DNA from: Bradyrhizobiaceae bacterium PARB1
GTDB lineage: Bacteria > Pseudomonadota > Alphaproteobacteria > Rhizobiales > Xanthobacteraceae
DNA length: 64,000 bases
Assembly (NCBI GenBank): GCA_002256345.1
Contig: NKIY01000002.1
Location: 248,001 to 312,000, forward strand
Direction of reading: 5' to 3'
Both the position numbers and the translations under genes were made by a program. Positions 31,438 to 63,147 of this stretch are shown here, one piece after another. Below the pieces are notes generated by a model, which saw nothing but the letters and a program-made list of their open reading frames with translations, ran no database searches and was not told the DNA's origin. Positions within the stretch are counted from its first letter, which is position 1, and the number at the start of each line of letters is the position of its first letter.

Positions 31438-31469
31438 CGGGGCGACCTCGCGCGAAGGGAGAGATCGAA

Positions 31470-43828: not shown

Positions 43829-43844
43829 GAGCGAGGTATTAGGA

Positions 43845-43884: not shown

Positions 43885-43940
43885 AGTCGAACATTGAAGC
43901 ACAAGGCATTCAACGCCGCTCGACAGGGGGAACGAACCAG

Positions 43941-45044: not shown

Positions 45045-45145
45045 CGCACCCATCGTCGTGACCGCGCTTCATAGCGTCGGTCGGTGTATCCATCAAAACA
45101 GCATCCAGTGCTCGCCGGGCGCGGCCTGGGTGCAGGACCCTTCCG

Positions 45146-46816: not shown

Positions 46817-47870
46817 TCTGATCGTTGACAATCTGAAGCTCCGCTATGGCAGCAACGACATTCTGCGCGGAGTCTCCCTGTCGGTCGAGAAAGGCCAGAT
46901 CGTCGCTCTGCTCGGGCCGTCTGGATCTGGCAAGACCACATTGCTGCGCGCCGTCGCAGGTCTGGAGACGCCGTTCGAGGGACGGATCGCCATTGCCGGC
47001 AAGGCGTTGTTCGACGGGGCGGCACGCACAAATCTGCCGCCGGAACAGCGTGGTCTTGGACTTGTGTTCCAATCCTATGCGCTGTGGCCGCATAAGACCG
47101 TCTTCGACAACGTGGCCTATCCTTTGCGTTTGCGCGGCGTGTCGGGAAGCGAGGTCGAGAAGCGGGTTGCAAAGGCGCTGGACAGCATCGGTATCGGTCA
47201 TCTCGGCGCGCGGTTTCCGCATGAGCTGTCCGGCGGTCAGCAGCAGCGCGTCGCGCTTGCCCGCGCGCTTGTCTATGAGCCGCCGGTGATCCTGCTCGAT
47301 GAGCCGCTCTCCAATCTCGATGCCAAGCTGCGCGAAGAAGCACGCGTTTGGCTGCGTCGATTGATCACGGAACTGGGCTTATCTGCGCTCTGCGTTACCC
47401 ACGATCAGGTTGAGGCCATGGCGCTTGCGGATCGCATCTTGCTATTGAACGGCGGCGTGGTGGAGCAGCAGGGCACGCCAGAGGATCTATATGATCGCCC
47501 GAAGTCGACCTTCGTTGCCGAGTTCATGGGAACGAACAACCGCCTGCTAGGCGTTGCCACGCAGGTCGCTGCAGATCGAGCCGTCTTGTCGATCGGCGAA
47601 GAGCGCCTCGAAGGGCTGTCTTGCGGCCCGGTCTCAGAAGGGCGAGAAGCGTGCGGCATCATTCGATTGGAGAAGATCCGATTGGCGCCAGGCCCCGGAC
47701 ACAATCGGCTGGCGATGACCCGGCTCGCGGAGATGTATCTCGGCGATCGCTATGAGGTCGTCTTTCAGCGCGGCCCGCTCACGGTGCGCACATTCTCACC
47801 GACACGTCTCGAAGGCGGCGAGCATTGGGTCGAGTTTCCGCCGGAAGCGTTCTGGATCGGATCACGCTGA
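46809..47870 (+). CDS. Iron-type ABC transporter ATPase
   Basis: A 353-residue ATPase with Walker A GPSGSGKT (36-43), signature LSGGQQQR, and DEPLSNLD. The C-terminal third is a TOBE-type regulatory domain, as in FbpC/PotA ATPases. The ATG at 46809 overlaps the end of the permease gene by 8 bases; an ATG at 46794 in the same frame would lie deeper in it. It ends the TctDE-linked uptake operon. The next gene, after 182 bases, belongs to a separate signalling system. Confidence 0.92.
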   Translation: MTDLIVDNLKLRYGSNDILRGVSLSVEKGQIVALLGPSGSGKTTLLRAVAGLETPFEGRIAIAGKALFDGAARTNLPPEQRGLGLVFQSYALWPHKTVFDNVAYPLRLRGVSGSEVEKRVAKALDSIGIGHLGARFPHELSGGQQQRVALARALVYEPPVILLDEPLSNLDAKLREEARVWLRRLITELGLSALCVTHDQVEAMALADRILLLNGGVVEQQGTPEDLYDRPKSTFVAEFMGTNNRLLGVATQVAADRAVLSIGEERLEGLSCGPVSEGREACGIIRLEKIRLAPGPGHNRLAMTRLAEMYLGDRYEVVFQRGPLTVRTFSPTRLEGGEHWVEFPPEAFWIGSR

Positions 47871-47957: not shown

Positions 47958-48052
47958 ATGATCGTTCCAGAGCCTCGGTGATGTGCTGACATGTAACTGT
48001 AATATCGCGAGACTATAGGTCCGAGGAGAGGGCGTTTTCGCAAGGACGGGTT

Positions 48053-48745
48053 GTGGTATTTGCGCCGAATTGGCGTGCAGGATTGATCGAACGAACGAAT
48101 TCAACGTTCGGTCTCTCGTTGGCCCTGATGCTGATCGCTGGCAGTGCGTTTGCGCAGGACGAACGCGTTGTCTTCGACATCCCGGCACAACCTCTGGCGT
48201 CCGCTCTGGAGCGCTATAGTGCCCTTACTGGCAATGACTTGCTTTACAACAGCAACCTGACATCGGGGCGTATCTCAAACCGCATCCAGGGAGCTATGGA
48301 GGCTGATGCCGCACTTGTTGCGCTTCTCGCCGATTCCGGTCTTTCGACGCGACGCCTTGCGAATGGATCGATCCTTCTGTCTCCAGCGCCAACAGAACTC
48401 GAAGCACGTACGTCGCCAGCAACCGCCCACTATTACGGACAGATGCAGGCAGGGCTTCGCAGAGCGCTTTGTCGGGACAGTCTCTCTCGGCCTGGGCATT
48501 ATCGGATCGTGCTGCGGATGTCGGTCGATGCGCATGGCCGCTTGACAAGATACGAACAGTTTGGTTCTGGCGGGAGCGTGGAGGCGGATGCGTCCATTCG
48601 GCGGGCACTCAGCCAGTTGAATTTCGGCGCATCACCTCCTGCGGAACTGAGGCAACCGATCGTAATGGCTATTGTGCCGAAAGGGCCGGGTGTCACCATG
48701 GGATGCGACGATGTCGCAGACAGTTCGACGCGAAGCGCGCAATGA
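48053..48745 (+). CDS. VreA-like signalling protein (STN domain plus TonB-C-like domain)
   Basis: A 230-residue exported protein starting at GTG 48053. A signal peptide is cleaved at AFAQ (34/35). Residues about 38-112 form an STN domain like the N-terminus of FecA-type receptors (VFDIPAQPLASALERYSALT, then ALLADSGLSTRRLANGSILL). Residues about 130-208 look like a TonB C-terminal domain (GHYRIVLRMSVDAHGRLTRY, ASIRRALSQLNF). There is no receptor barrel. This two-domain form is that of Pseudomonas VreA, which signals to a sigma factor without importing iron. The sigma gene follows with a 4-base overlap. Confidence 0.8.
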   Translation: MVFAPNWRAGLIERTNSTFGLSLALMLIAGSAFAQDERVVFDIPAQPLASALERYSALTGNDLLYNSNLTSGRISNRIQGAMEADAALVALLADSGLSTRRLANGSILLSPAPTELEARTSPATAHYYGQMQAGLRRALCRDSLSRPGHYRIVLRMSVDAHGRLTRYEQFGSGGSVEADASIRRALSQLNFGASPPAELRQPIVMAIVPKGPGVTMGCDDVADSSTRSAQ

Positions 48746-49257
48746 GTGACGTATCCCTTGCGGTTGTCAGACGGCATCTGATCGATCGTTATGATGAACT
48801 GAAACAACGTCTTTCGCGCCGCTTGGGATCGCCGGATCTTGCTTCCGACGCGTTGCAGGATGCGTGGCTGAGGATCGATCGCGTGGATGCGATCGGTGAC
48901 GTGCGCAATCCCGGCAACTACATATTCGGCATCGCCATGAATGCGGCGCGCGATCGCATGCGTGAGGCCAACACGCGCTATCTGAGCGCAGCCGAGGTGG
49001 ACAGCCTGCTGCAGATTCCGGACGAGGCACCGGCCCCGTCCAACATTGTCGAGATGCGCTCCGATCTGAAGCAACTGGAGGCGATCCTGCTAGAATTGCC
49101 TGCGAGGCAACGAGAGATCCTTTTAGCCGCGCGGATCGACCAGATGCCCCGCGCAGAAATCGCGGAGCGTTTCGGAATTTCCGTGAGCCTCGTCGAAAAA
49201 GAATTGCAGCGCGCTCAGGAATATTGCCTGGCGAGACGCGAAAAATCTGGCAAATGA
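48742..49257 (+). CDS. ECF-family sigma factor (FecI/VreI-like)
   Basis: A 171-residue sigma-70-family factor of the iron-starvation type. Region 2 is visible as LGSPDLASDALQDAWLRIDR, region 4 as LPARQREILLAARIDQMPRA followed by an HTH (EIAERFGISVSLVEKELQRA). It starts within the end of the VreA-like gene (ATGA) and is followed after 112 bases by a FecR-type anti-sigma gene. It probably transcribes the giant exoprotein gene once released by its FecR partner. Confidence 0.9.
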   Translation: MSDVSLAVVRRHLIDRYDELKQRLSRRLGSPDLASDALQDAWLRIDRVDAIGDVRNPGNYIFGIAMNAARDRMREANTRYLSAAEVDSLLQIPDEAPAPSNIVEMRSDLKQLEAILLELPARQREILLAARIDQMPRAEIAERFGISVSLVEKELQRAQEYCLARREKSGK

Positions 49258-49369
49258 CCATGCGGAATCACGTTCCTGGAAACGTCATACAGGTGAGAGA
49301 GGCTGCTCGGCTTCAGCGTCGCTCCACGTTTCAGGTGGGAGATATTGCCGCCGGATCGGGGAGTTCGGC

Positions 49370-50371
49370 ATGACCGGCAGACTCGATGATCTGGAGCTCG
49401 ATTCGTTGAAACAAGAAGCGATCGGCTGGGTTCGTCGTTTGACATCCGGTGCAGTGACAGCTGCGGAAGCTGAACAGTTCAAGCGCTGGCGCGGCAAAAG
49501 TCCAGAACATGCCGCCGCTTTTGCCGCGGCAAGCAACTTGTGGCGCGATCTTGGCGTTGCCGGCGAGAATGTGCGGAAGCGGCAGCGTAGCGTCGGATCA
49601 CATTCACGGAACGCTGGAGTCGGGTTGCTTCATCGCCGGGCTTTCCTCGGAGGCGGTCTGGCTGCGGCTACCATCGCCGCGGGCGCCTATGTCGCTGCGC
49701 GTCCGCCGCTCGATCTTTGGCCTTCCATTGCCGAACTCAGTGCCGATTATCGGACCAGAACAGGCGAGCAGCGTGACGTCTCCTTCGCGGACATCGCTAT
49801 CCGGATGAATACACGGACCAGCATCGCGCGCGAGCCCTCTTCGAGCGACATGGACCGGGTGCGGTTGATTACGGGCGAGGCGTCATTTGCAACTGCGGGG
49901 CAGGGGCGGACATTGTCCGTGATCGCCGCCGATAGCGAGATCGCCGCAACGGCTGCCCGTTTCGATGTCAGCTATCTGCAGGACGCAGATGGTACAGCAT
50001 CAGTCTGTGCGACCTGCCTGCAGGGTGAGTTGCGTGTCGCGCGGGGGGCAGAGGCAACGACCGTGGTCGCGGGCCAGAAGATTCGTTATGCCGCGAACGG
50101 TGCCAAAGATCTTCATCAAGTCGATGTGGATGTGGTTTCTGCATGGCAGGAAGGCGTTCTGGTGTTCCGGAACACTGCGTTGAAGGACGTCGTCAACGAG
50201 GTCAATCGCTATCGTCGCGGGAGGATCATCGTGACCAACGCACAGATCGGAGGTGTGCCGGTCAGTGGCCGTTTCCGCATTAGCCGGATCGACGACATTC
50301 TCACGCAGATGGAACAGGCCTTCGGTGCGAAGATGCGCCAATTGCCGGGTGGGATCGTCCTCCTGAGCTGA
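49370..50371 (+). CDS. FecR-family anti-sigma factor / sigma regulator
   Basis: A 333-residue inner-membrane regulator. The cytoplasmic anti-sigma part (residues about 10-60, EAIGWVRRLTSGAVTAAEAE) binds the sigma factor; one membrane segment follows at about 93-110, preceded by RRAFLGGG. The periplasmic FecR domain (AELSADYRTRTGEQRDVSFA to VSAWQEGVLVFRNTALKDVV) ends with an STN-like region (GGVPVSGRFRISRIDDILTQ) that should contact the VreA-like protein. It completes the signalling chain and lies 296 bases before the exoprotein gene. Confidence 0.9.
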   Translation: MTGRLDDLELDSLKQEAIGWVRRLTSGAVTAAEAEQFKRWRGKSPEHAAAFAAASNLWRDLGVAGENVRKRQRSVGSHSRNAGVGLLHRRAFLGGGLAAATIAAGAYVAARPPLDLWPSIAELSADYRTRTGEQRDVSFADIAIRMNTRTSIAREPSSSDMDRVRLITGEASFATAGQGRTLSVIAADSEIAATAARFDVSYLQDADGTASVCATCLQGELRVARGAEATTVVAGQKIRYAANGAKDLHQVDVDVVSAWQEGVLVFRNTALKDVVNEVNRYRRGRIIVTNAQIGGVPVSGRFRISRIDDILTQMEQAFGAKMRQLPGGIVLLS

Positions 50372-50667
50372 CACGAAAGTTTCACAAAAATCTCGTGGGG
50401 TTTTGCCCTGCCAACCCCGTCACCCAAGTATGAACGTTTCGTTTCCAGTTAGCCGATCGCATCATTGCGGCCGGTTGCTGGCGCTTGGGGCATGTTTGGT
50501 GGCTACATCTCGATCCGCGTTGTACTGGACAGATCGATCGCTGCCGCCTGAATGCCAGCATGCTGGCGAGCCAGACCGCGATGCTCAGGCGGTCGCTGTG
50601 GCGATGCGTTATCCGAACCTTCGATCCCATCACCACCGTCTCGTTGCGCCTGCGCCAAGGAACTTCC
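50372..50667. promoter_or_regulatory. Leader of the giant exoprotein gene
   Basis: A 296-base gap between the anti-sigma and exoprotein genes. GGGGTT and AACCCC (50397-50402 and 50413-50418) can form a small hairpin. A FecI-type promoter is expected here because the sigma gene is upstream, but I cannot point to one with confidence. Confidence 0.35.
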
Positions 50668-53600
50668 ATGTCTGATCAGATGGTCATCCGCGCTTCTCGT
50701 AGCCCGGTGCGTTATGGATTGCTGGCGGGCACGAGCCTGCTTGCGATGCTCGTCGCGGGTGATAGTGCATTTGGGCGCGCTTTGAATGGCGGCAGTGGTG
50801 GAGCTGTGTCTGCGCCGAACATTGCGACCGATGCCGCAACGCAGGCGGCAGCCAGGGCCGCAGCCGCTGCGCGACAGACGCAGGATTCACTCGCGCGCGC
50901 TGCACGCGCCGTGCAGGAGATGCAAAATGTGCAGGCTGCAGCGCGAGCGGCGGCGGCTAGAGCACAAGTCTCAGCGACCGCGCCGATTGCTATTCCCAAC
51001 GGTCTCGGTGCCGGCGGTCTGCTGCCCTACATGCCGGCCGGATGGACAGGTGCCGATGCACCGACGCAGAATGTGGACGCGACAGGCCAGACCCAGGTTG
51101 GCATCCGACAGACCACGCAGCAGGCGATCCTGAACTGGCAGTCGTTCAACGTCGGCGCGCGCACCACGCTGACCTTCGACCAGCAGGGCGGCCGCGACTG
51201 GGTCGCGCTCAACCGCGTCACCAATGCCACTGCGCCGAGCCAGATCCTCGGCAACGTCCGAGCCGACGGCCATGTCTACCTGATCAACCGCAGTGGCATC
51301 ATTTTCGGTGGCAACAGCCAGGTCAATGTCGGATCGCTGATCGCCTCGACCGCGGACATCTCCGACACGCAATTCGCGAATAACGGCATTTTCAGCACCA
51401 AGAACGGCAATATTGATGTGCCGAGCTTCACCGCCGCGGGCGGCAAGGTTGTGGTCGAGGCGGGAGCTGCGATCAATACGCATGCTCCGACATCGGTGAC
51501 AACGGGCGGCGGCTATGTGCTGATGATCGGCTCTGAAGTCAGCAATGCCGGCTCGATCGGCACGCCTCGCGGCCAGGCGCTGCTGGCATCCGGCGATGAT
51601 TTCATTTTGCGCGCTGGTTTCAGCACCGACAGCGCTCCCAGCTCGACCACGCGTGGCATCGAGATCGCGCCAGTCATCCAGGCGGGCAGCTTGGCAGGTC
51701 GCGTCGCCAACAGTGGCCTGATCCTCGCCCAGCAAGGCGATATCACGCTGGCCGGCCGCATCATCGCGCAGGACGGCGCGCTGGTCGCTACCACTTCAGT
51801 CAACACCCGCGGCACTATCCACCTCTTAAATTCCGCGGCCGACTCGGCGGGGAGCATTACACTCGGCAAAAGCGGGCTCACCGCTATCCTGCCAGAACTC
51901 GACAGCCAGGAGACCGCGCTGGATAGCCAGCGTGATGCTCTGATTGCGGCTTCGGCCGTGGCCAACGGCGCACGCGCTCAGGCCGCATCTGGCAAGTTCG
52001 ATAATCTCTCGCCTCTGGCCGACCGGCAGGATCAATCGCGTATCGAGATCGTCACGGGCGGTACAGTCCTGTTCAAGGGTGGGTCCTATACGGCAGCGCA
52101 AGGGGGGCAGATTGCCGTCTCGGCGAGCAAGCGTATTTTCACTGAAGATGGCGCGACGCTCGACGTCTCTGGCGTACGCAATGTCGCGCTGGCGATGGCG
52201 TCGAACAACATTAAGGTCAACGTGCAGGGCAACGAACTGCGCGACAGCCCGAGCAATCGCGATTCCGCCGTGCTCAAGAGCAACGACGTCTGGATCGACG
52301 TCCGCACGCTCACGCTGGTGCCGAAGGGCACTGGCGGCTACAGCTCCGATCGATACTATACGGCGGGCGGCTTGCTGGAGGTCGGCGGCTATCTCAACAC
52401 CACGGCGCATGGGATCGGCGAATGGGCTGCCATGGGCGGCACGATCACGTTGTCGGCACCAGAAGTGATCGCGCAGAAGGGCGCGACCTTCGACATCTCT
52501 GGCGGTTCGCTGGACTACGCCGGCGGATGGCTGCGCTCGACAAATCTGATCGGAAGCGACGGCCGCCGCTATTCGGTCGATCAGGCGCCTGGCGATCTGA
52601 CCTATTCCGGTTTTGCCGGAGGCTTCTCGCGCACGCATAGTATCCAGGGCAAGACGGACGACCGCCTGACTGAAACCTGGACCTCGATCTTCGATCGCGG
52701 CCGCACCTCGTTGCGCTGGGAGGATGGCTATTCGGTCGGCCGCGATGCCGGACGGTTGATCCTTTCGGCGCCGACCGGAATCTTCGAGGCCAACATCGTC
52801 GCCGATACAATCACCGGCGAAATGCAGGTGCAGAAGCGGGCATCGGGCGTCACTGACGGCTACAAGGTAACCCAGACCACGGTCGCGCAGAATGGCACGC
52901 TTGCGATCGGGCAATATTCGGCATTTGGCCGCGTCGGAGCCTATGCGACCGACATCAAGATCGGTGATGTCGCGAGCATCAGCTCGGGTCTGGCTGCCAA
53001 CACGGCGCTCGCACCGACGCGCGTCAATACGTTGTGGCTGGATGCCGGCGCTCTTAACGCGCAGCAGCTGGGCGGCATCGATATCGCAACGCGCGGCAGC
53101 GTGACGATCGACAGCGCGCTGGCGTTGGCCGATGGCGGCGCGCTCGCTTTGCTCGCCCCTGTTATCGACATTCGCGCTGACGTTACCGCGCGCAGCGGCA
53201 GCGTGGCGACCGGCAATATCCTCGTCGCCACCGATACAACAGCGGGCAATCTCGTTCTGCTGAAAAACGGCGGATCGAGCGTAACGCTCCGTGACGGCGC
53301 GACCATCGACGTGCGCGGCCGCTGGATCAATGCGGATGGTGACGTGAATGCGTTGCGCAAACGCGCTTATGTCAATGGCGGCAGTGTTAGCCTTCGCTCG
53401 ACAGGAGATGTCGTTATCGAACGTGGCAGCAGCATCGACGTCTCGTCGGGTGCAGGCATTCTGATTGGCGGCAAGACCTTGAGCGGAAAGGGCGGCGATG
53501 TGGCGCTCTTGGCCGATCAGCCTGCGGCCGGCGTCAGTTCCGGCGGCCGTCTGAAACTTGATGGCAGCATCAACGCCTATGGCGTGGCCGGTGGCGGCGC

Positions 53601-56600
53601 TTTGTCGATCGAGTCAGGGCCGCAAATCATTATCGGTAATACGGCGGACGATAGCAGCGGGGCGCTGCGGCTTGATACCGCGCTGTTCCAGTCCGGCTTC
53701 GCATCCTATCAGATCGACGGCCATCAGGGCCTCACGGTGGCCGAGAATACCAAGCTCGATGTGTTCGCGCCGGTCTATCGTTTCACCGCCGACGCCTTTG
53801 CAAGCGCTGATGGTGAAACGGCGCTGGAGCGCTGGATAAAGCCGCTCTTCTTGGAGGATTTGCGCGCGGGCCTGTTGACCCAGCGCGCGGGCGCCAGCCT
53901 GTCGCTGCAGGCCGGTCAGGCCGCATCCACCGCGTCCGACATGGCGCGCGCGGGTCTCGTCATCGGCCGTGGCGCAGTTGTGACGGTCGATCCGGGGCAG
54001 ACTATCGACATTTCCGGGGTCGGACAGATCACCATCGACGGCACATTGAACGCCTGGGGTGGGAAAATCCAGGTCGGTGCCATCGCGCCGACACTGAACG
54101 CGGTTGCGGTCTACACGCCGGGCGACGGACGATCGATCTGGATAGGCGAGCATGCGGTGCTCGACGTCGCCGGGCGTGCGTATACGGCAGTCGATGCACG
54201 CGGCCGGCGCTATGGCAAAGTACAGGGCGGCGGGTCGATCATCATCGGCGGCGAATTGGACACGGCGACTGGCGTCGCCACCGCCCCGAATCTGTTCGTG
54301 GTGGTGCGCGACGGCGCCATGCTTGATGCGTCGGGCACAGCGGCCACGCTCGATTTGCTGAATGGCGGCACGACCAATGTCGCCAGCAGTGGCGGCGCCA
54401 TTTCGTTCGCATCCGCGGACGGCTTCGATCTCGGTGGCACCTGGCTTGCCAGAGCCGGTGGAGCAGGGGCGGCCGGAGGAACGCTGTCGGTTGCACTCGA
54501 AGCGCCGGTCTATCCCGACACCATTGCTACGCGCTATCTGAAGTCGCGCGATCTGACCGTGACGCAGATGCGCACCACCAGCGCGCTGGCAGCGAATGCC
54601 ACGCCGGAAAGCGCCGCGGCATCGCTCGTCTATGGCCGCGCCGCCATCAGTGCCGCGCAGGCCACCGGCGGCGGGTTCAACAATCTCAATCTGCTCAGCC
54701 ATGGCATCATTGCCTTCGACGGCGATGTGTCGCTGGCGATGCCGCAGACCCTCCAGCTATTCGCCACGTCTTATGCGCTCGCTGATGCGGCAAGAAACGA
54801 TATTCGCGTCGCACTTGCTGCGCCCTATCTCCGGCTTGCCGGCATCACCCAGCATGCCACCGGCGATGGAAGGATCGTGCCAGCCAACTATCTCGTCCGC
54901 GCATCGACGCGAACCAGCGCGGCGCAGTTCACGGCCACAGCCGATCTGCTCGATATCCAGCGCAACGTGCTGTTCGGAACATCGACCTCAAACGTCAAAT
55001 TCTCCGTCGATCGTCGCGGTTTCGGCGATGTGTCGCTGATCAGCAATGGTGATCTGCGTTTCCTGGCTGGCGGTGCCAGCCTGGTCAACGCACCCGGCAA
55101 TGTGCTGCTGGCAGCACGGCAGATCTACCCGACCATTGGCGCATCGGCGACCGTGCGCGCAGGCTGGACCATCGACAGCACGTACCAGAACACGGACCCG
55201 AACTTCGCGCTCACCGTCGCAAGTACGGGCACGGCTCCCGACGCTCAGCCTTATTCCGCCTTCGGCAGCCTCAGCCTGATTGCCGGAACGATCAATCAGG
55301 GCGGCACTATCCGCGCGCCGCTCGGCTATATCACCCTCGGCGACGACTACGGCACTCGCACCGTCAATCTATTGCCAGGTAGCATCACCTCAACCAGTTC
55401 GAACGGACTGATGCTGCCTTATGGCGGCACTGTCGACGGCATCGACTGGCTACGCAATGACAGCAAGATCACGCTTCAAGGCGTGGCGATCCAGGCGCGG
55501 GGTGTATTCCTGAATGCTCCGCGCGTCGATGTGCAGCAAGGCGCGGTGATCGATCTCAGCGGCGGCGGCGAGTTGACCGGCGCGGGATTCGTGTCCGGCC
55601 GCGGCGGCTCGATCAATGTGCTGCGCTATCCGTTAGTGGCGGCAAACCCGAGCTACAAAGCGAGCGCCAGCGGCAATACGGTCTATGCGATCGTGCCCGG
55701 CTATGGATCGAACTACGCGCCGGCCGGAACCGAGACCGGATTTGCCGATCCCCTGATCGGCCGGCAGATCACGCTCGACGGCACCGTGCCTGGCTTGCCG
55801 GCAGGCACCTATACGCTGCTGCCAGCAAATTACGCGCTGCAGCCCGGCGCGTTCCGCATCGAGGTGGCCGCCAAGGCCGATCCGCGAGGCGCAGTCGGCA
55901 GCGCCGCGCTCGCGAACGGCTCCTATCTCGCCAGCGGCCAGCTCGGCTTTGCCAGTGGGCAGGTCCGCGACAGCCTTGCCAGGCAGGTCATTGTGACCCC
56001 GGGCAAGGCGGTGCGCACGCTGTCGCAATATAACGAGATGAGCTATTCGCAATATGTGGTCGCCGATGCTGCGCGGCTCGGCGTGCCGCGGGCGATGTTG
56101 CCGGCCGACGGCAAGAGCCTCACGCTATCGATCCGCACCGGCGCCGGCACCGATGCGTTGCGCTTTGACGGCGATATCGATTTCAGCGCGGCATCCGGCG
56201 GCTTTGCCGGATCGGCCAGTCTGTATAGCAGCTTCGGCACCGAGTTCGAGATTCTGCCCACCGGCGCTGCGGCCACCGCCGGCTTCGCGGGCGTATCGCT
56301 CTATGCCGATGATCTCAATGCGCTGGCGGCGAGCCGGCTGGTCATCGGCGCGATCCCGACGGTCAAATATGGCCAGCAGGGCCGCTACTTCACATTCGTG
56401 GACAGCACCCTGAAGAGTTCGCGCAGCATCACACTGCGCGAAGGCGCTGTGCTACGTGCGGCGGAAGTGATCCTGGTCAGCGGCTGGCAAGATCTCGGGA
56501 CCGGCGCCACCGGCGCCATTACCATCGAAGCCGGCGCCGGCATCAACACGCTCGGCATGGGCGCCACGCCATTCGATTCCCGCGACGGCTATATCTATAC

Positions 56601-59600
56601 GCCGCAACCGGGCCCCACGACCGGCGCCGCCATGCTGGCCGTCTCCAATGGCTGGCTCGACGTGCTACCGGCAACATCAAGCGTAACGTCCCAAGCATCG
56701 ATCCTGATCGGCGCCTGCGGGGCCAGCGGGAATTGCGGCGCGCCGACAACATTGTATTCGGACGGCACGATTGCTTTCGCGACCACCAACCGGTTCGAAC
56801 TCGGCAACAATGTCCGTTACGGCACCCGTAATCTGTCCTTCGGCGTCGGTGCGGTCAATATTGGCACTGCCGCAGCTCTGGCAGATGCCAGCGCGGCCGG
56901 CTTGCTGCCATCGGGCCTGATGATCAATCAGGACGTGCTCGACCGGCTGCTGCGCGGCGACACATCGACCGGCGCTCCCGCGCTGGAAAGCCTTGTTCTC
57001 AAGGCCAGCGAGGCGGTCAATGTGTTTGGTACGGTGACGCTCGATACATACGGCGCCGACGGCACCTCGAAGATCGCCAATCTCGTGTTCGGCACGCCGG
57101 CTTTCTACGGTTACGGTACGTCGGCAGATGCGGCCGTGATCCGCACCCAAAACTTTGTCTGGGCCGGTACCACTGGCGCACCAGGATCGCTGATCACCGG
57201 CGGCGCGGGCTCCGGCAACGGCGCGTTCACCATCGATGCCGAACGCATCACCCTCGGCTATGGCCCGAAGACGCAGATCAGCGGTACCGACAGCGTGGCG
57301 CGCTTTGTGCTCGGCTTTGCAGGCGTCACGTTGAGCGCGAGCGATCGCATCACTGCCAATCAGGCCGGCAGCCTTGCGGTGTATCAGAGCCAAGGCGCTT
57401 ACGTGGCGGGCAGCGGCTACAGTTATGCCGGCGGCAATCTAACGCTGGCGACGCCATTGCTGACCGGCGAAGCCGGATCGGTCATCGCCATCAAGGCAGG
57501 CGGATCGCTGGCCGCCGTGGCGTCCAACGGCGCGACGCCGCATCTCTTGTCAAGCGGCGAGGGCCTTGGCGCCGACCTGTCGCTGCAGGGCCAGACTGTT
57601 TCCATCGCGACCACCGTGGCGTTGCCTAGCGGCCGTTTGGCCGTCAGCGCCGATGGCGACATCGTGCTGACCGATACAGCGAGGCTCGATCTCGCCGGCC
57701 GCACCATCGGCATCCTCGGTGCCACCAAATATAGCTGGGGCGGCGATGTGATCCTGGAAAGCCGCGCCGGCAATATCAGGCAGTCGGCAGGATCGACCAT
57801 CGACGTGTCGGCCAAAAACAACAATGCCGGCAGTGTTTCCGCTGCAGCGCTCAGTGCGAGCGCGGGCGTGGTCGATCTGCAGGGCGCCATCATCGGCACC
57901 ACCAGCGGGCAATATGACGCCGGCGGCACCGTGATGCCATATCGCGCAGGCAGCGTCGATCTGCGGGCGCAGAGATTGGGCGATGCCGGCACGCTCACCG
58001 ATCAATTCGCGGCGCTGAATACGCGGCTGAATGCCGGCGGCATTTTCGGTGGCCGCAGCTTCCAGCTCAAGCAGGGTGATCTCGTCATCGGTGACGGCCT
58101 GCGCGCCGGCGAGATTTCGGTGTCGGTCGACAATGGCCATCTGACGGTGACCGGCACGGTGGATGCGAGCGGCGCTGCCGTCGGATCGATCCGGCTCGCC
58201 GCCAAACATGGGCTGACGATTGCCGGCACCGCGCTGCTCGATGCCCATAGCCGCCGACTGCGCGTCGATAGCTACGGCAAGATCATCGACAGCCCGAACC
58301 GCGCCAGCGTCGAACTCAATTCCGGCGACGGTCTGTTGACCCTCGCATCCGGCGCGCGGATCGACCTGCGGCACGGCACCGGCATTCCCGTCGGCAGCGC
58401 CGCGTGGATGAATGACGGCGCCGCGCGCGGCACGCTCGACCTCTATGCGCTGCGCCTGGGCGGCGCCACCGGCGGCGATATCGCCATCGACGCGTCGGGC
58501 GGCATCACCGTCACCGGCGCGCGCTCGATAGCGGTCAATGCCGTGCAGCGTTATGACGACGCGGCCTATGGCACTGATCCCGCGGCCAGCGGCCGGCCCT
58601 ATCAGGAGATCACCCAGGCCTATCTGGATGGCAAGAATGTCGAGAGCGGGCAGTTCATCACTGCGGCGCTCGCCAACACTGCGCTGATGAACGGCAAGCT
58701 CGCCGGTCTGCGCGGCTATGCCGACGCGTTCCATCTGCGCCCGGGCGTGGAGATCGTCAGCGCCACGCCGGATGGCGATCTGGTGGTGAAGGGCGATCTC
58801 GATCTGTCGGCCTATCGCTATGCCGGCGTGAATCCGAACTTCCAGCGCACCGGCGTTTACGGCTCAGGTGAAGTCGGATCGCTGGTGATCCGCGCCGGCG
58901 GCAATCTCGATATCTATGGCAGCATCAATGACGGCTTCGCGCCGCCGCCTGCCACCGCGGATGACGATGGCTGGATCTTGCGGCCGGGCACGCTGTCCTA
59001 TGGCGGCGATGTCATCGTGCCGAACGGCAATGTGGTGCTTGCCGATGGCACGACCTATCCGTCCGGCCGCGCGCTCAACTACAATCTTCCGGTCAAGGCG
59101 ATGACGGTGCCGACCGGTACGCGGCTTCCGGCCGCCGCCGTTCTCGGCGCCGCCATCACGCTGCCGGCCAATACCATTCTCGCCGGTGACGTTCGCGCCG
59201 CCGATGGCACGTTGCTTTATGCGGCGGGCACGCGACTGGCCGGTGCCGTGACGCTGCCGGCCGATACGCGACTTGGCATCGGCTTCGTCGCGCCGACCGG
59301 CCTGTCGCTGCGCGCCATGATATGGCCGAAGGGCGTCGCGCTGCCGGTCACTGCAACGATCGACGGCGATTTGGCGCTGACGATGGGCAGCCTCATACCG
59401 GCCAAGGCGGTACTCAAGCTGCCGAACAATGCCATCGATGTCTCGTTGCGTCCGGTAGATGGCAACGGCCGGCAGGGCACCAACTGGGCCGTGGCATCAA
59501 TGCTGCCAGCCGGCTCGCAGAGCTGGTCGATGCGTCTTGTCGCTGGCGCGGATCTCACGGCGGCTGATACCCGCGCGCTGCGACCGCGCGATGCCAATGG

Positions 59601-62600
59601 CAATCTGACGCTCGCCGATACGCATTTCTCGGTGTTCGACCAGCACCAGATCACGGTCATTCCGGGCACGCCGGCCCAGCCGGGCTACATTTGGTACTGG
59701 TCCGACGAAGGTGCGGGTCTGTTCGGCGAAAATCCGGGCACGGAGATCTCCGCCGACTGGGGACCTGAAAGCCTCTGTTCCGATGCACCGAGCTTCTGCA
59801 ACAAGGTGCAATATCTCTGGAGCGACCTGGCGCCGATCTTCGATCCCTCCTTTGTCCCAGGCAAAGCCGTGCTCGGCGACAATCTCGCTTGGTGTCCAAG
59901 CGACGCCTGTGTTCCGGCTCGCGATCCGATCCCGGGCACGCCCGACCAGACGATCATCGGCGCGGTGATCGACCGCAATCCGGCCAATCCGATCTTCAGC
60001 GTGGTGCGCACCGGCACTGGCGATCTCGATCTGGTGTCCGGCGGCAATCTGGCGATGCGCTCGTCCTATGGTGTCTACACGGCGGGCACGCAGTCGCCCG
60101 GCGTGGCGGCGCTGTATAATCAGAGCCGCACGGCGTCAGGCGGCAGCGTGCTCGGCAGCGGCGGCGCCGATTACGCGCCGCTGGTGAGCGGCACCGGCAA
60201 TCTCTATCAGGCTTGGTATCCGACGCTCGGCGGCAATCTGCTGCTGCGCGCCGGCGGCAATCTCACGGGCGACGCCTGGACCCGCGGCAGCGCTCTCGGT
60301 GCCGAGGGCAATCGCGTCAGCCAGAAGACCAGCACCGATCCGGCCAACTGGCTGTGGCGCCAGGGTGATGTGGCGGGAGCCGACAATGGTGCCGCCTGGT
60401 GGATCAATTTCGGCACCTATGTGGCGGGCGATGCACCGAACGCGGCCAATACGCTCGACAGCATGCCCTATCTGGTCGGCTTCACCGGCTACGGCACGCT
60501 CGGCGGTGGCAATCTGCGGGTCGATGTCGGTGGCAATGCCGGCACCGTCGACGCGCTCAGCCCGGGATCGTGGAGCGGCGGCCTTTTCCCGCGCAGCCAG
60601 GCGCTGACGCTGGCGGTGGCCTCGACGGGGCGGGTCAATGGCGACGGCAGCCTGACGCTGACCGGCGGCGGCGACATGGATGTCCGCATCGGTGGCGCGC
60701 TCAATGCGCTGCGCAGCGCCTATATGATCGGAACTGGCGACAACCAGACACAGAATGTCGGCTTGAATGGCGTGGCCGCCAATCTGCGCGGCCATACAGA
60801 GATTGCAGCCGGCAGCCAGGGCAGCATTCAATTGCGATACGGCCCGTTCGCGTCGCTGCAGGATGCCAAGGAGGTGCGCGCTTACGATGCCTTCACAGCG
60901 ACCGCGTCGCTGGCCGGCGGCGGTCTTATGGTGATGCCGGGTGACGCGACCTTCAGCCTCACCTCGCGCGACGATCTCGTGCTCAGCGGCGTGCGCGATG
61001 GCGGCCGCACGGTCGGGATCGACAGCAATACTTCGCAGACCAATGCCTGGTTCACATTGTGGACCGACCGCACCGCGATCGATCTGTTCGCGGCCGGCGG
61101 CAACCTGACGCCGAGCACGCAACTCGGCCAGATCGGCGGTACCAACTCGCCCGATCCGGACACCGGCCTGACCGGCCTCCGCTTCGTCTATCCTGCCACC
61201 CTGCGCGCGGCGGCACCGTCGGGCAGCATCTATATGGGCGGGTCGGCAGTTCTCACGACCAATCTGGATATCGTCTATTCGCTGATGCTGGCGCCGTCGC
61301 CGTCCGGCGAGTTGGAGCTGCTCGCCGGCCAATCGATCTATGCCGGCAATTACGCGATCAGCCGGTCCGGCGCCGCGCCGTCGGTGCTGGCAACACCACT
61401 CAATCCGGCCACGCCATCGAATCTCAGCCCGGTGAGTTTCGGGCAACAAAACGATCTGTTTGCCTTCGGCTCGAACACGGCATCTGGCCTTTACGACCTC
61501 GCACCGGCACGGCTCTATGCGGCGTCGGGGGATATCGTCGGCTTGCGCACCGGCGAAATCCTGGACACCTTCTTTGCAAGCAATGCGCTGTTCGGTCGCA
61601 CTCTCTATGAGGGCAGCGGGGCGGTGTGGATGAAGGCGGGACGCGACATCGTCAATAGCGGCACCAATGTCGGCGCCTTCAGCTTCCTGTCGCCGAGCTT
61701 CATCGGCGGCCATGCCACTGGCAATCTGTTCGTGCACAATTCGGACACGGATGTTTCCATCGTCTCGGCCGGCCGCGACATCATCTACAGTTCGTTCAAT
61801 GTGGCAGGGCCGGGCACGCTGGCGATCAGCGCCGGCCGCAATATCCTGATGGAAGATCGCGCCAGCATAACCTCGCTCGGCGCCGTCGTGCCGGCCGACC
61901 ACAGGCCGGGCGCCAGTATCAGCCTGCAGGCCGGGATTGGCGCCAGCGGGCCGGACTACGCGGCGCTGGCGGCGCGCTATCTCGATCCTGCCAATCTCGC
62001 AGCCACCGACATTCCGCTTACCGAACAGGCTGGCAAGGTAGTCAAGACATATGAACAGGAGCTCGCGGCTTGGCTGAAGGATCGTTATGGTTTTGACGGC
62101 ACGATCGCCGATGCTCGCGCTTATTTCGGCGGCCTCGCGCAAGAGCAGCGAAACATCTTCCTGCGCGAGGTCTATTTCTCGGAGCTGCGCGCCGGCGGCC
62201 GCGAATACAATGATCCGACCAGCAAGCGTTACCATTCTTATCTGCGCGGCCGCGACGCCATCGCCACGCTGTTCCCGACAGCTAACGGTTCGGGCGATAT
62301 CACGATGTTCGGCGGCGCCGGCGTGCGCTCCAATTTCGGCGGCGCGATCCAGTTGATGGCGCCGGCGGGCCGCGTCGTGATTGGAGTCGAGGGCACGGCA
62401 CCGCCGGCGACGGCGGGTCTGGTCACCCAAGGTAGTGGCGACATCCAGGTTTATGCGAATGGCAGTGTGCTGCTCGGCCTGTCACGGATCATGACCACGT
62501 TCGGTGGTGACATTCTCGCCTGGTCCGCCAATGGCGATATCAACGCGGGCCGGGGCGCCAAGACGACGGTGCTCTACACCCCGCCGAAGCGCGTCACAGA

Positions 62601-63147
62601 CAACTACGGCAATGTCGTGCTGTCACCGCAGGTACCATCCTCGGGCGCCGGCATCGCCACGCTCAACCCGATTCCCGAAGTGCCGGCCGGCAATATCGAC
62701 CTGATCGCGCCGCTCGGCACCATCGATGCAGGCGAGGCGGGCATCCGTGTGTCGGGCAATATCAACCTTGCGGCTTTGCAGGTACTGAACGCTGCGAATA
62801 TTCAGGTGCAAGGTACCTCATCGGGCATCCCAACGGTGCAGGTGCCGAGCATTTCAGCGGCGCTGTCGAGCTCGAATGCAACGGCGGCAACGCAACAGAC
62901 CGCGACGCCGACGCAAAGCGCCAGCGCCCAGCCGTCGGTGATCATCGTCGAAGTGCTTGGCTATGGCGGAGGCGAGCCGCAGAGGCCCGGCCAGCCCGAT
63001 GAAGACGACGCGCAGAAGCGCCGATCCGGTGAGCGGTCGAGCTACGATCCGAATAGCATGTTCCAGGTGGTCGGTGGTGGAGAGCTCAACAACGACCAGA
63101 AAAACAAGCTGACCCAACAAGAACGGGCGGCCATGTCGATTAGGTAG
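50668..63147 (+). CDS. Giant filamentous-haemagglutinin-type exoprotein (TpsA, DUF3739-like)
   Basis: A 4,159-residue predicted secreted protein. ATG 50668 follows AAGGAA; the 61 extra codons open upstream lack a signal. A signal peptide ends near residue 36, then an alanine-rich helical stretch (49-110), then the TPS secretion domain (about 132-250; LNWQSFNVGARTTLTFDQQG, with NRSGIIFGG at 207-215 where NPNGI is usual). The body is a long glycine-rich beta-helix. A helical insert (about residues 3760-3870, EQELAAWLKDRYGFDGTIAD) and a charged C-terminal tail resemble DUF3739-family exoproteins. Only six cysteines are present, in three pairs. It should need a TpsB channel, but none is encoded in the window. 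Adhesion or contact-dependent roles are possible. Confidence 0.85.
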   Translation: MSDQMVIRASRSPVRYGLLAGTSLLAMLVAGDSAFGRALNGGSGGAVSAPNIATDAATQAAARAAAAARQTQDSLARAARAVQEMQNVQAAARAAAARAQVSATAPIAIPNGLGAGGLLPYMPAGWTGADAPTQNVDATGQTQVGIRQTTQQAILNWQSFNVGARTTLTFDQQGGRDWVALNRVTNATAPSQILGNVRADGHVYLINRSGIIFGGNSQVNVGSLIASTADISDTQFANNGIFSTKNGNIDVPSFTAAGGKVVVEAGAAINTHAPTSVTTGGGYVLMIGSEVSNAGSIGTPRGQALLASGDDFILRAGFSTDSAPSSTTRGIEIAPVIQAGSLAGRVANSGLILAQQGDITLAGRIIAQDGALVATTSVNTRGTIHLLNSAADSAGSITLGKSGLTAILPELDSQETALDSQRDALIAASAVANGARAQAASGKFDNLSPLADRQDQSRIEIVTGGTVLFKGGSYTAAQGGQIAVSASKRIFTEDGATLDVSGVRNVALAMASNNIKVNVQGNELRDSPSNRDSAVLKSNDVWIDVRTLTLVPKGTGGYSSDRYYTAGGLLEVGGYLNTTAHGIGEWAAMGGTITLSAPEVIAQKGATFDISGGSLDYAGGWLRSTNLIGSDGRRYSVDQAPGDLTYSGFAGGFSRTHSIQGKTDDRLTETWTSIFDRGRTSLRWEDGYSVGRDAGRLILSAPTGIFEANIVADTITGEMQVQKRASGVTDGYKVTQTTVAQNGTLAIGQYSAFGRVGAYATDIKIGDVASISSGLAANTALAPTRVNTLWLDAGALNAQQLGGIDIATRGSVTIDSALALADGGALALLAPVIDIRADVTARSGSVATGNILVATDTTAGNLVLLKNGGSSVTLRDGATIDVRGRWINADGDVNALRKRAYVNGGSVSLRSTGDVVIERGSSIDVSSGAGILIGGKTLSGKGGDVALLADQPAAGVSSGGRLKLDGSINAYGVAGGGALSIESGPQIIIGNTADDSSGALRLDTALFQSGFASYQIDGHQGLTVAENTKLDVFAPVYRFTADAFASADGETALERWIKPLFLEDLRAGLLTQRAGASLSLQAGQAASTASDMARAGLVIGRGAVVTVDPGQTIDISGVGQITIDGTLNAWGGKIQVGAIAPTLNAVAVYTPGDGRSIWIGEHAVLDVAGRAYTAVDARGRRYGKVQGGGSIIIGGELDTATGVATAPNLFVVVRDGAMLDASGTAATLDLLNGGTTNVASSGGAISFASADGFDLGGTWLARAGGAGAAGGTLSVALEAPVYPDTIATRYLKSRDLTVTQMRTTSALAANATPESAAASLVYGRAAISAAQATGGGFNNLNLLSHGIIAFDGDVSLAMPQTLQLFATSYALADAARNDIRVALAAPYLRLAGITQHATGDGRIVPANYLVRASTRTSAAQFTATADLLDIQRNVLFGTSTSNVKFSVDRRGFGDVSLISNGDLRFLAGGASLVNAPGNVLLAARQIYPTIGASATVRAGWTIDSTYQNTDPNFALTVASTGTAPDAQPYSAFGSLSLIAGTINQGGTIRAPLGYITLGDDYGTRTVNLLPGSITSTSSNGLMLPYGGTVDGIDWLRNDSKITLQGVAIQARGVFLNAPRVDVQQGAVIDLSGGGELTGAGFVSGRGGSINVLRYPLVAANPSYKASASGNTVYAIVPGYGSNYAPAGTETGFADPLIGRQITLDGTVPGLPAGTYTLLPANYALQPGAFRIEVAAKADPRGAVGSAALANGSYLASGQLGFASGQVRDSLARQVIVTPGKAVRTLSQYNEMSYSQYVVADAARLGVPRAMLPADGKSLTLSIRTGAGTDALRFDGDIDFSAASGGFAGSASLYSSFGTEFEILPTGAAATAGFAGVSLYADDLNALAASRLVIGAIPTVKYGQQGRYFTFVDSTLKSSRSITLREGAVLRAAEVILVSGWQDLGTGATGAITIEAGAGINTLGMGATPFDSRDGYIYTPQPGPTTGAAMLAVSNGWLDVLPATSSVTSQASILIGACGASGNCGAPTTLYSDGTIAFATTNRFELGNNVRYGTRNLSFGVGAVNIGTAAALADASAAGLLPSGLMINQDVLDRLLRGDTSTGAPALESLVLKASEAVNVFGTVTLDTYGADGTSKIANLVFGTPAFYGYGTSADAAVIRTQNFVWAGTTGAPGSLITGGAGSGNGAFTIDAERITLGYGPKTQISGTDSVARFVLGFAGVTLSASDRITANQAGSLAVYQSQGAYVAGSGYSYAGGNLTLATPLLTGEAGSVIAIKAGGSLAAVASNGATPHLLSSGEGLGADLSLQGQTVSIATTVALPSGRLAVSADGDIVLTDTARLDLAGRTIGILGATKYSWGGDVILESRAGNIRQSAGSTIDVSAKNNNAGSVSAAALSASAGVVDLQGAIIGTTSGQYDAGGTVMPYRAGSVDLRAQRLGDAGTLTDQFAALNTRLNAGGIFGGRSFQLKQGDLVIGDGLRAGEISVSVDNGHLTVTGTVDASGAAVGSIRLAAKHGLTIAGTALLDAHSRRLRVDSYGKIIDSPNRASVELNSGDGLLTLASGARIDLRHGTGIPVGSAAWMNDGAARGTLDLYALRLGGATGGDIAIDASGGITVTGARSIAVNAVQRYDDAAYGTDPAASGRPYQEITQAYLDGKNVESGQFITAALANTALMNGKLAGLRGYADAFHLRPGVEIVSATPDGDLVVKGDLDLSAYRYAGVNPNFQRTGVYGSGEVGSLVIRAGGNLDIYGSINDGFAPPPATADDDGWILRPGTLSYGGDVIVPNGNVVLADGTTYPSGRALNYNLPVKAMTVPTGTRLPAAAVLGAAITLPANTILAGDVRAADGTLLYAAGTRLAGAVTLPADTRLGIGFVAPTGLSLRAMIWPKGVALPVTATIDGDLALTMGSLIPAKAVLKLPNNAIDVSLRPVDGNGRQGTNWAVASMLPAGSQSWSMRLVAGADLTAADTRALRPRDANGNLTLADTHFSVFDQHQITVIPGTPAQPGYIWYWSDEGAGLFGENPGTEISADWGPESLCSDAPSFCNKVQYLWSDLAPIFDPSFVPGKAVLGDNLAWCPSDACVPARDPIPGTPDQTIIGAVIDRNPANPIFSVVRTGTGDLDLVSGGNLAMRSSYGVYTAGTQSPGVAALYNQSRTASGGSVLGSGGADYAPLVSGTGNLYQAWYPTLGGNLLLRAGGNLTGDAWTRGSALGAEGNRVSQKTSTDPANWLWRQGDVAGADNGAAWWINFGTYVAGDAPNAANTLDSMPYLVGFTGYGTLGGGNLRVDVGGNAGTVDALSPGSWSGGLFPRSQALTLAVASTGRVNGDGSLTLTGGGDMDVRIGGALNALRSAYMIGTGDNQTQNVGLNGVAANLRGHTEIAAGSQGSIQLRYGPFASLQDAKEVRAYDAFTATASLAGGGLMVMPGDATFSLTSRDDLVLSGVRDGGRTVGIDSNTSQTNAWFTLWTDRTAIDLFAAGGNLTPSTQLGQIGGTNSPDPDTGLTGLRFVYPATLRAAAPSGSIYMGGSAVLTTNLDIVYSLMLAPSPSGELELLAGQSIYAGNYAISRSGAAPSVLATPLNPATPSNLSPVSFGQQNDLFAFGSNTASGLYDLAPARLYAASGDIVGLRTGEILDTFFASNALFGRTLYEGSGAVWMKAGRDIVNSGTNVGAFSFLSPSFIGGHATGNLFVHNSDTDVSIVSAGRDIIYSSFNVAGPGTLAISAGRNILMEDRASITSLGAVVPADHRPGASISLQAGIGASGPDYAALAARYLDPANLAATDIPLTEQAGKVVKTYEQELAAWLKDRYGFDGTIADARAYFGGLAQEQRNIFLREVYFSELRAGGREYNDPTSKRYHSYLRGRDAIATLFPTANGSGDITMFGGAGVRSNFGGAIQLMAPAGRVVIGVEGTAPPATAGLVTQGSGDIQVYANGSVLLGLSRIMTTFGGDILAWSANGDINAGRGAKTTVLYTPPKRVTDNYGNVVLSPQVPSSGAGIATLNPIPEVPAGNIDLIAPLGTIDAGEAGIRVSGNINLAALQVLNAANIQVQGTSSGIPTVQVPSISAALSSSNATAATQQTATPTQSASAQPSVIIVEVLGYGGGEPQRPGQPDEDDAQKRRSGERSSYDPNSMFQVVGGGELNNDQKNKLTQQERAAMSIR

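Follow-up and report, generated by a model that had tools for sequence, protein, structure and literature searches.

The cassette and its genes

The window, a stretch of 64,000 nucleotides from Bradyrhizobiaceae bacterium PARB1, carries at positions 48053 to 63147 the gene order vreA-sigma-fecR-tpsA on one strand (Table 1), all four genes of the earlier note being present as reading frames with domain matches. The sigma factor exceeds the Pfam cut-offs for Sigma70_r2 and Sigma70_r4_2, and its gene likely starts at the ATG at 48742, overlapping the vreA stop codon, the listed 262-residue reading frame beginning too far upstream. The anti-sigma protein exceeds cut-offs for DUF4880, FecR and FecR_C and matches PupR; the NCBIfam FecI and FecR equivalog models give matches below their cut-offs. 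The exoprotein is recognized by TPS (E 1.4e-25) and DUF3739 (E 3.6e-41) profiles, and consists of a signal region, a helical-looking lead of about 100 residues, the TPS domain, a long middle and the C-terminal DUF3739. Judged by eye, its start is likely the ATG at 50668, following AAGGAAC, rather than the TTG at 50485. The exoprotein gene does lie directly behind the anti-sigma gene, as had been proposed, across a gap of 296 bases in which tpsA's own promoter appears to sit. No TpsB is encoded near the cassette: all four of the genome's POTRA_2 matches lie elsewhere, the closest one on the same contig about 184 kb away. The genes at 42734-47870, considered as a source of TpsB, are ABC transporter genes by Pfam and NCBIfam.

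Table 1. Features of the cassette and of its upstream region, in positions of the window
Feature	Position	Strand	Remarks and basis
PHO box CTGACAT-GTAA-CTGTAAT	47986..48003	+	Upstream of vreA; by eye, motif search, consensus 12/14
-10-like element TATAGG	48014..48019	+	10 bases past PHO box
VreA-like gene	48053..48745	+	GTG start, 230 aa, probably periplasmic; ORF list, Pfam, family profile, AlphaFold2
FecI-type ECF sigma factor gene	48742..49257	+	171 aa; ORF list, Pfam, NCBIfam, likely start
FecR-type anti-sigma factor gene	49370..50371	+	DUF4880, FecR, FecR_C domains; RR motif N-terminal to membrane segment
Putative sigma-dependent tpsA promoter CACAAAAATC, -35-like GTGGGGTTTTG, -10-like CCGTCACCC	50383..50425	+	Motif search, similarity between cassettes
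tpsA-type giant exoprotein gene	50668..63147	+	4159 aa; profile matches, start picked by eye

The unusual form claimed for the first protein, a signal peptide with STN and TonB-C-like domains and no barrel, is borne out by profiles and by an AlphaFold2 model (mean pLDDT 86.6), and Pfam and the model gave no plug or outer-membrane barrel in its 230 residues. The signal peptide was called by eye and from a predicted helix at 17-29, and is followed by the STN domain (about 38-111) and a C-terminal domain of TolA/TonB fold (about 122-207). Single-sequence matches are faint for both domains: STN reaches E 2.8e-5 and 24.2 bits, under the curated cut-off of 28.4 bits, and the C-terminal half reaches E 0.16 with TonB_2 (Pfam) and E 0.01 with tonB_Cterm (NCBIfam). 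A profile of the family matches the signalling domains of FpvA, PupA, PupB and FecA at E 3e-17 to 2e-13, and HasB/TonB more weakly (E 0.004 to 0.6). In structure searches the model aligns with 6ovk_B, the signalling domain of PupB (TM 0.91 by target); its C-terminal half scores higher against TolA (2x9a_B; TM 0.75 by target, E 0.004) than against TonB (2gsk_B; TM 0.57, E 0.04); the modelled half therefore belongs to the TolA/TonB superfamily, with TolA the nearer relative by fold. In a direct profile comparison this domain also aligns with the TonB of the export hub described below (hhalign 99.2%, E 3e-19), pointing to a homology that appears to be new here. Cysteines at 140 and 218 are kept as a pair in 52 of 53 exoprotein-linked VreAs, near-identical cassettes included, which argues that VreA has retained a function; the pair occurs in none of the five hub VreAs, a contrast that is likewise new here. 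Counted on the same 53 cassettes, the self-cleavage dipeptide GT is absent from every FecR at the presumed aligned place, but PupR (6ovk_R) lacks it there as well, so that no conclusion is drawn from its absence.

A repertoire of cassettes and a single candidate export hub

This Nitrobacteraceae genome, probably that of a Tardiphaga, has at least 18 paralogous cassettes of PUMA3 (VreA-VreI-VreR) type, the present locus among them; 15 are complete in one gene order, with 17 DUF3739 matches and 18 cassette VreA-like genes in addition to a hub copy. The description of the locus as an island does not hold: cassettes or cassette heads occur on eight contigs of the assembly, widely spaced on contig C26, and the regulatory genes have a G+C content of about 0.59, equal to their surroundings, with tpsA itself higher (0.63-0.66). 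Nor is the system self-contained, since TpsB, ExbB, ExbD and TonB are encoded together in one hub operon on a different contig, ordered vreA-sigma-fecR, tpsB, exbB (with DUF2341-LamG), exbD, tonB and porin. The hub TpsB carries POTRA_2 and ShlB domains, and accounts for one of the genome's four POTRA_2 matches; the porin is of the Porin_5 type. Across three samples of genomes, DUF3739 and the hub ExbB were found in exactly the same members (14 of 150, 14 of 398 and 5 of 357), a co-occurrence that is new here.

The same gene order was recovered in other alphaproteobacteria, STN, sigma, FecR and TPS following one another in 34 of 37 loci collected by the TPS domain alone; the remaining three begin at a contig end, without upstream sequence, so that VreA adjoins sigma and FecR in all 34 loci where upstream sequence exists. 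Another genome of the genus (G009) holds 20 DUF3739 matches. Among 16 cassettes of the present genome, mean identity is 0.29 for VreA, 0.41 for sigma, 0.40 for FecR and 0.71 for the TPS domain, the most alike sigma factors reaching 73%; this contrast between regulators and TPS domain is new here. For covariation, 47 of 53 cassettes, those whose TPS domain is complete, were retained, and redundancy cuts brought them down to 39 and then 34. In the set of 39, the parts of VreA, sigma and FecR covary (r 0.35-0.64), and the TPS domain tracks the regulators poorly (r 0.01-0.19). Since TPS distances nevertheless correlate with those of STN (r 0.19, p 0.04), and DUF3739 distances with those of VreA (r 0.34, p 0.001), sigma (r 0.29, p 0.016) and FecR (r 0.30, p 0.02), the exoprotein is not wholly uncoupled from its regulators.

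Upstream sequences and a possible phosphate gate

A collection of 57 cassettes, 54 of them distinct, was used for upstream analysis. Scored on all 54, near-identical ones kept, the PHO consensus reached at least 11/14 in 20 cassettes, compared with 2.2% of shuffles. Motif searches and a held-out test used 47, seven near-identical Bradyrhizobium cassettes being left out; 31 of the 47 vreA upstream regions exceeded the 99% null and 16 fell under it, the motif being missed in one of six folds. A C-TA element at -10-like spacing forms part of the motif found across cassettes, the hub vreA has a PHO-like site of its own (13/14), and at both pstS loci the top-scoring PHO sites sit upstream of the pstS match. 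The PHO boxes predicted ahead of vreA in these cassettes are new here, and suggest a common phosphate-starvation gate. The earlier note's remark that the inducing signal is unknown stands for the private step of each cassette, and gives way to this suggested gate for the step they share.

The region between fecR and tpsA differs. No PHO box stands out there, the consensus reaching 7-11/14, the same as in a second control; a CTGACAC-GAAA-GTTTCAC-AAAA stretch noticed by eye in the gap of the present cassette looks like a PHO box, but the consensus score lends it no support, such regions scoring like the control. What motif search did recover across cassettes is an A-rich element with a loose CG core (score 256.7, compared with 76.1 for a shuffled control; a set taken inside tpsA, at 744.9, is no control because it lies within the conserved TPS domain). 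The candidate promoter region of the present cassette has very similar counterparts in its close relatives L055 and L056. In 34 cassettes, similarity of the region falls with sigma/FecR distance (r -0.45 to -0.57, p 0.0002), compared with r -0.05 (p 0.11) for TPS distance. This link is confounded by neighbourhood: once other regulator distances are removed, the correlation for sigma region 4 shrinks to a partial r of -0.065, and direct covariation with the promoter beyond shared neighbourhood is not supported.

Signalling, export and alternative readings

The kind of system is already known, and a regulatory cassette with tpsA is not novel in itself. The accessible part of one report (PMC2729926) has the arrangement in Rhodopseudomonas palustris and Janthinobacterium sp. 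on the plan seen here, several clusters standing before tpsA and one before tpsB with exbBD; R. palustris has four according to Llamas 2009, three of them before tpsA, compared with at least 18 here. The P. aeruginosa system, as portions of three papers describe it (PMC2729926, PMC4971064, PMC7035377), shares the VreA form (signal peptide, STN and TolA/TonB-like domain), the order vreA-vreI-vreR and a PHO box before vreA, and its partners are PdtA/PdtB and ExbB2-ExbD2-TonB4; both systems are tied to TpsA, TpsB, ExbB, ExbD, TonB, a putative porin and a PpiC isomerase. In those portions, P. aeruginosa has a single vreAIR that also governs the Hxc type II system, and a PHO box in the pdtA promoter, whereas here at least 18 cassettes have their own exoproteins, no PHO box was recovered before tpsA, and the hub has a separate regulator set, made up of a VreA lacking the cysteines, a sigma factor and a FecR. 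With FecA-FecI-FecR and PupB-PupI-PupR the cassettes share the STN fold, a FecI-type sigma and a FecR/PupR-type anti-sigma; unlike them, they have no barrel or plug, place the receptor-like gene first in the operon, and appear to be gated by phosphate rather than iron.

We consider it probable that PhoB provides for production of the cassettes, that every sigma factor switches on the exoprotein of its cassette, and that one TonB-linked hub TpsB exports them all. In phosphate starvation PhoB would bind the PHO box and vreA-vreI-vreR would be transcribed, by analogy with P. aeruginosa, where the available part of one study has vreAIR requiring PhoB (PMC4971064). The FecR-like protein would hold the sigma factor, and the STN domain of VreA, whose fold the model recovers, would touch the periplasmic C-terminus of that protein in the manner of FecA/PupB-type receptors; the sigma factor, once freed, would read a promoter in the fecR-tpsA gap of the same cassette, a private recognition consistent with the way similarity of that region tracks the regulators. 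Exit of the DUF3739 exoproteins through the single hub TpsB with ExbB-ExbD-TonB is suggested by their co-occurrence and conserved TPS domains. The bacterium would thereby command a set of giant surface proteins with a common starvation gate and a private second switch for each.

VreA may not be the switch, however, since its deletion in P. aeruginosa left low-phosphate expression of the regulon (PMC4971064) and virulence (PMC7035377) unchanged, as far as the accessible parts of these studies report. Phosphate starvation alone might switch the cassettes, PhoB causing sigma and anti-sigma to be produced jointly and enough free sigma escaping the anti-sigma to transcribe tpsA without any private signal, with VreA a bystander or mere brake. 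PHO boxes precede many cassettes; the FoxA/FoxR signalling domain protects its anti-sigma factor (2024, PMC11637429, seen in part), so that an STN protein standing alone could act purely as a brake; and no full VreA was seen among the best 18 candidates per genome in the hub-bearing genomes G044, G060 and G089, so VreA seems unnecessary for the exoprotein-hub pair. Its unbroken adjacency to sigma and FecR, its covariation with both and the conserved cysteine pair speak against this reading, which we hold to be rather unlikely. Several sigma factors might instead recognize the same promoters, making the cassettes one redundantly controlled regulon; the motif common to the fecR-tpsA regions and the closest sigma pairs would allow it, but low mean sigma identity and the drop in region similarity with sigma/FecR distance make such cross-talk improbable. 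For PUMA3-type signalling the genome amounts to a natural experiment, in which a single soil bacterium carries many sensor-sigma-promoter sets that have diverged and apparently feed one export hub under one starvation gate.

That the hub ExbB-ExbD-TonB serves uptake rather than secretion, the exoprotein capturing a phosphorus-bearing or other ligand for import by the hub porin or another receptor, is a reading we take seriously while leaning against it. The encoded porin and the PHO-like site of the hub suit it, and HxuA working with TonB-dependent HxuC is a precedent (PMC5422565, seen in part); on the other side, the Pfam scan of the genome's own hub genes brought out no plug-and-barrel receptor of the TonB-dependent kind. 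Inspection by eye of the hub TpsB and porin N-termini brought out no TonB-box-like motif. The strict DUF3739-ExbB pairing fits secretion and uptake alike. Use of the three further POTRA_2 proteins of the genome in place of the hub TpsB is highly improbable, these being distant from it (E 3e-13 and 9e-11 for two of them, with the third absent among the matches listed), and the co-occurrence across genomes being with the hub ExbB.

TonB-linked export is the boldest point of the preferred secretion reading, because two-partner secretion (type V export) is held to need no external energy. A stronger version, speculative and doubtful in our estimation, would make the DUF3739 exoproteins a powered branch of it, their TpsB tied firmly to a dedicated ExbB (with DUF2341-LamG head), ExbD and TonB, and proton motive force driving or gating export. 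VreA, with a C-terminal domain related to that of the hub TonB, would read occupancy of the TonB docking site and so couple transcription of each exoprotein to the state of the exporter; a possible source of the VreA signal is thereby suggested, the exporter's own TonB docking partner. The pairing of DUF3739 with ExbB-ExbD-TonB in three genome samples makes the driver of two-partner secretion addressable by gene deletion. The parts themselves resemble type Vb FhaB/FhaC in the TPS domain with its filamentous haemagglutinin N-terminal motif and in the POTRA_2 and ShlB domains of the hub TpsB; unlike FhaB/FhaC, TpsA and TpsB are unlinked here, many TpsA proteins facing one hub TpsB, exbB, exbD and tonB lie inside the tpsB operon, and the exoproteins have a lead ahead of their TPS domain and end in DUF3739.

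Repeated cassettes and their genomic setting

The giant exoprotein gene of the window closes a unit in which genes for a VreA-like protein, an ECF sigma factor and a FecR-type anti-sigma factor come before it, and we hold with high confidence that this unit is of the same kind as PUMA3, the VreA-VreI-VreR system of P. aeruginosa, as the earlier note had proposed. The own genome (6.95 Mb, 32 contigs) contains 17 matches to DUF3739, the tail domain of the exoprotein, with VreA-like genes upstream, and 15 complete cassettes, all in the same gene order. Three further cassette heads (L023, L024 and L025) end at contig ends, and two tails, at the starts of contigs C23 and C9, may partly pair with them; counted by heads, the genome holds at least 18 cassettes. 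Such a plan of repeated clusters is itself already published, to judge from excerpts of PMC2729926.

Coordinates of the four-gene unit in the window and of the ExbB gene in the separate hub operon
Feature	Coordinates	Strand	Remark
VreA-like protein gene	48053-48745	+	first of four-gene unit
ECF sigma factor gene	48742-49257	+	second of unit
FecR-type anti-sigma factor gene	49370-50371	+	third of unit
Giant TpsA gene	50668-63147	+	fourth of unit
Hub ExbB-type proton channel with large N-terminal DUF2341 and LamG lectin-like region	L044:4254-6245 (G000:C1)	minus	

DUF3739 matches occurred in 14 of 150 relatives, at 1 to 20 a genome, and in 5 of the 17 other listed genomes of the same genus, with none in 12. 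A public genome set searched by the TPS domain alone yielded 37 loci in Tardiphaga, Bradyrhizobium, Rhodopseudomonas and Rhodoblastus; in 34 of these, genes for an STN domain (the signalling domain of FecA/PupB-type receptors), sigma factor, FecR and TPS domain follow one another, the other 3 being without upstream sequence, and the gene order sought by the earlier note in other alphaproteobacteria is thus present there. The VreA-like protein also matches 12 plasmid records, of which 4 were examined. On plasmids of Methylosinus trichosporium OB3b and Cupriavidus basilensis the gene order is complete and includes a protein of the filamentous haemagglutinin family (annotated in Methylosinus as two overlapping genes), a Variovorax plasmid has VreA-like and sigma genes after a type II secretion cluster, at the start or end of the record, and a Klebsiella pneumoniae plasmid has the regulatory trio, followed by 9.4 kb without a listed gene in an incomplete gene table.

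Among 16 own cassettes the regulators have mean identities of 0.29 (VreA), 0.41 (sigma) and 0.40 (FecR), and the TPS domain one of 0.71; DUF3739 averages 0.66 (15 own cassettes with the tail), and the exoprotein middle lies at about 0.35-0.56 (200-residue blocks, 801 to 3800). When 39 of the 47 cassettes are compared, the parts of the regulators vary together (Mantel r 0.35-0.64) and the TPS domain tracks them poorly (r 0.01-0.19; STN against TPS 0.19, p 0.04). DUF3739 tracks the regulators somewhat in the own genome (r 0.29-0.34, p 0.001-0.02), and therefore the exoprotein is not wholly uncoupled from them. These sequence patterns may reflect one exporter that is fed by many separate sets of regulators and would constrain or homogenise the TPS domain; the fit is no proof.

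Elsewhere in the window, ABC transporter genes lie immediately upstream of the cassette (42734-47870: two solute-binding proteins, a fused permease and an ATPase), with a weak match to 2-aminoethylphosphonate uptake models, below curated cut-offs, and are preceded by a two-component pair (40344-42478). RND efflux genes (8585-17922 and 20886-26390) encode three pumps: two adjoining ones of AcrB type, accompanied by an outer-membrane efflux protein, and one that has a LysR regulator and a HlyD-type partner; two adjacent proteins at 30223-32267 have four DUF347 repeats in each.

A candidate export hub

One of four POTRA_2 matches in the own genome, on contig C1, occupies the exoprotein's position behind a VreA-sigma-FecR trio. 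It belongs to a separate operon, here called the hub, which runs VreA-like protein, sigma factor, FecR, TpsB, ExbB, ExbD, TonB and Porin_5, then a coiled coil, a PpiC isomerase, a transglycosylase, a 127-aa protein and a trypsin-like protease, and last a small protein whose C-terminal domain is related. The order TpsB, ExbB, TonB, Porin_5 and coil is constant in 10 of 10 hub loci (own and nine other genomes). The trio lies upstream in the own genome, G001, G006, G009 and G059; the G069 contig starts at the sigma gene. In G089 and G060 a DUF3739 gene stands immediately upstream of TpsB, with no trio in the stretch examined; G119 has no trio upstream and a full cassette adjoins, and in G044 sigma and FecR matches diverge from TpsB, with no VreA in the stretch examined.

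In each of three samples DUF3739 and the hub ExbB were present in one and the same set of genomes, namely 14 of 150 relatives, 14 of 398 genomes of the phylum and 5 of 357 of the class, these searches scoring only the best candidates of a first-pass screen, with some genomes recurring across samples. Both are present in 31 distinct genomes, a number that follows because the own genome belongs to all three samples, and in 12 families by assigned labels. No genome with only one of the two was found in the three samples at cut-offs of E 1e-3 for DUF3739 and, for ExbB, E 1e-40 among relatives and 1e-30 in the phylum and class samples, a count weakened as statistics by shared ancestry. Genomes with many DUF3739 matches (17 in the own genome, 20 in G009, 9 each in G069 and G853) have one hub ExbB, and G296 has two places of each. 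A single hub likely serves the DUF3739 exoproteins, a putative role.

The hub gene kinds agree with those of P. aeruginosa PA0692-PA0699 in excerpts of PMC2729926 and PMC7035377, the latter terming exbB2-exbD2-tonB4 a still uncharacterised putative TonB system. Type V export is powered by no hydrolysable energy source or gradient according to passages of a review (PMC5422565), and the portions available of the literature searched on two-partner secretion, ExbB, TpsB and TonB held no mention of powered two-partner export. DUF2341 on ExbB-type channels is mentioned as of unknown function in part of a 2025 paper (PMC12505986), and the word DUF3739 was not found in the literature searched.

In G006 the DUF3739 matches, and in G011 three of the four, are in frames of less than about 3100 aa, some split, most others having roughly 4000 aa; the hub FecR of G006 (L122) comprises two overlapping frames. 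Either decay or sequencing errors may account for these short and split frames.

Predicted phosphate control and promoter pairing

A motif search upstream of the VreA genes returned CTGTC(A/G)T-N4-(C/T)TGTAAT-N9/10-C-TA, obtained from a random seed; a second run was best from a consensus seed and similar from random sites. Its spacing is that of the PHO box, two 7-base repeats 4 bases apart as described in excerpts of PMC4971064, followed by a -10-like element. A simple consensus is matched at a minimum of 11 of its 14 positions in 20 of the 54 cassettes, the hub counted among them, and in 2.2% of shuffled sequences; the trained motif scores at least 9 in 39 of 47 upstream regions, and at 60 of the 2,014,250 positions on the two strands of the collected loci. 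Held-out testing in six folds placed 31 of 47 above the 99% null, the motif being missed in one fold. In each of the two pstS loci of the own genome the best-scoring PHO-like site is about 150-180 bases upstream of the pstS match; these sites score 8.0 and 7.8, below 9, with the trained motif. P. aeruginosa vreAIR depends on PhoB, by direct binding, in the portion of PMC4971064 available. Judged from the predicted PHO boxes, a phosphate gate on the cassettes is very likely.

Between fecR and tpsA lies an A-rich element followed by a loose CG core. Across 34 cassettes, this region becomes less similar as the distances of sigma (r -0.45) and FecR (r -0.57) grow (p 0.0002), against r -0.05 (p 0.11) for TPS distance, and partial correlations did not single out sigma region 4. 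Region similarity thus tracks sigma and FecR, with partial correlations indecisive, and putative private recognition of each promoter by its own sigma factor is therefore rather probable.

The VreA-like protein

The VreA-like protein is small; its STN domain is clear in profile comparison (FpvA, E 3e-17), its match in a single-sequence Pfam search being under the curated cut-off. The C-terminal half is barely detectable in sequence (TonB_2, E 0.16 in Pfam), and its predicted fold (pLDDT 86.6 for the protein) is closer to the TolA C-terminal domain, with a TM score of 0.75 (by target), than to TonB, with 0.57; the TonB-C-like character claimed for this half therefore stands in the wide sense of the TolA/TonB superfamily. 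Compared as two profiles with hhalign, the C-terminal domains of VreA and hub TonB match at 99.2% probability (E 3e-19), and a profile of the own VreAs matches the hub TonB of G119, G060 and G089 (E about 1e-20), with no other match in G089. Solved TonB/HasB chains gave E 0.004 or worse; all these values come from differing methods and database sizes and do not share one scale. We regard it as doubtful that VreA acts as a sensor which docks on the hub, an estimate lowered by the absence of a vreA phenotype in P. aeruginosa in excerpts of PMC4971064 and PMC7035377.

Of 53 exoprotein-linked VreAs, 52 carry one cysteine in the first helix together with another in the tail, a count that keeps near-identical proteins and accepts the tail cysteine anywhere in the last 40 residues. 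The sole exception, L067 of Tardiphaga BWSM_99, lacks both, as do 5 of 5 hub VreAs examined; 4 of 4 plasmid-borne VreAs examined have both. The pair may form a disulphide.

Small proteins near hubs or cassettes (L124:8009-8476 in the own genome, L115:3317-3802, L120:11391-12056, L121:3912-4463 and L046:5969-6814) have no Pfam match. Four of them were tested and match the VreA profile in its C-terminal part; the own one is similar by eye. Outside the known cassettes, an STN-only match was seen in a 171-aa frame at G000:C24:14274-14567.
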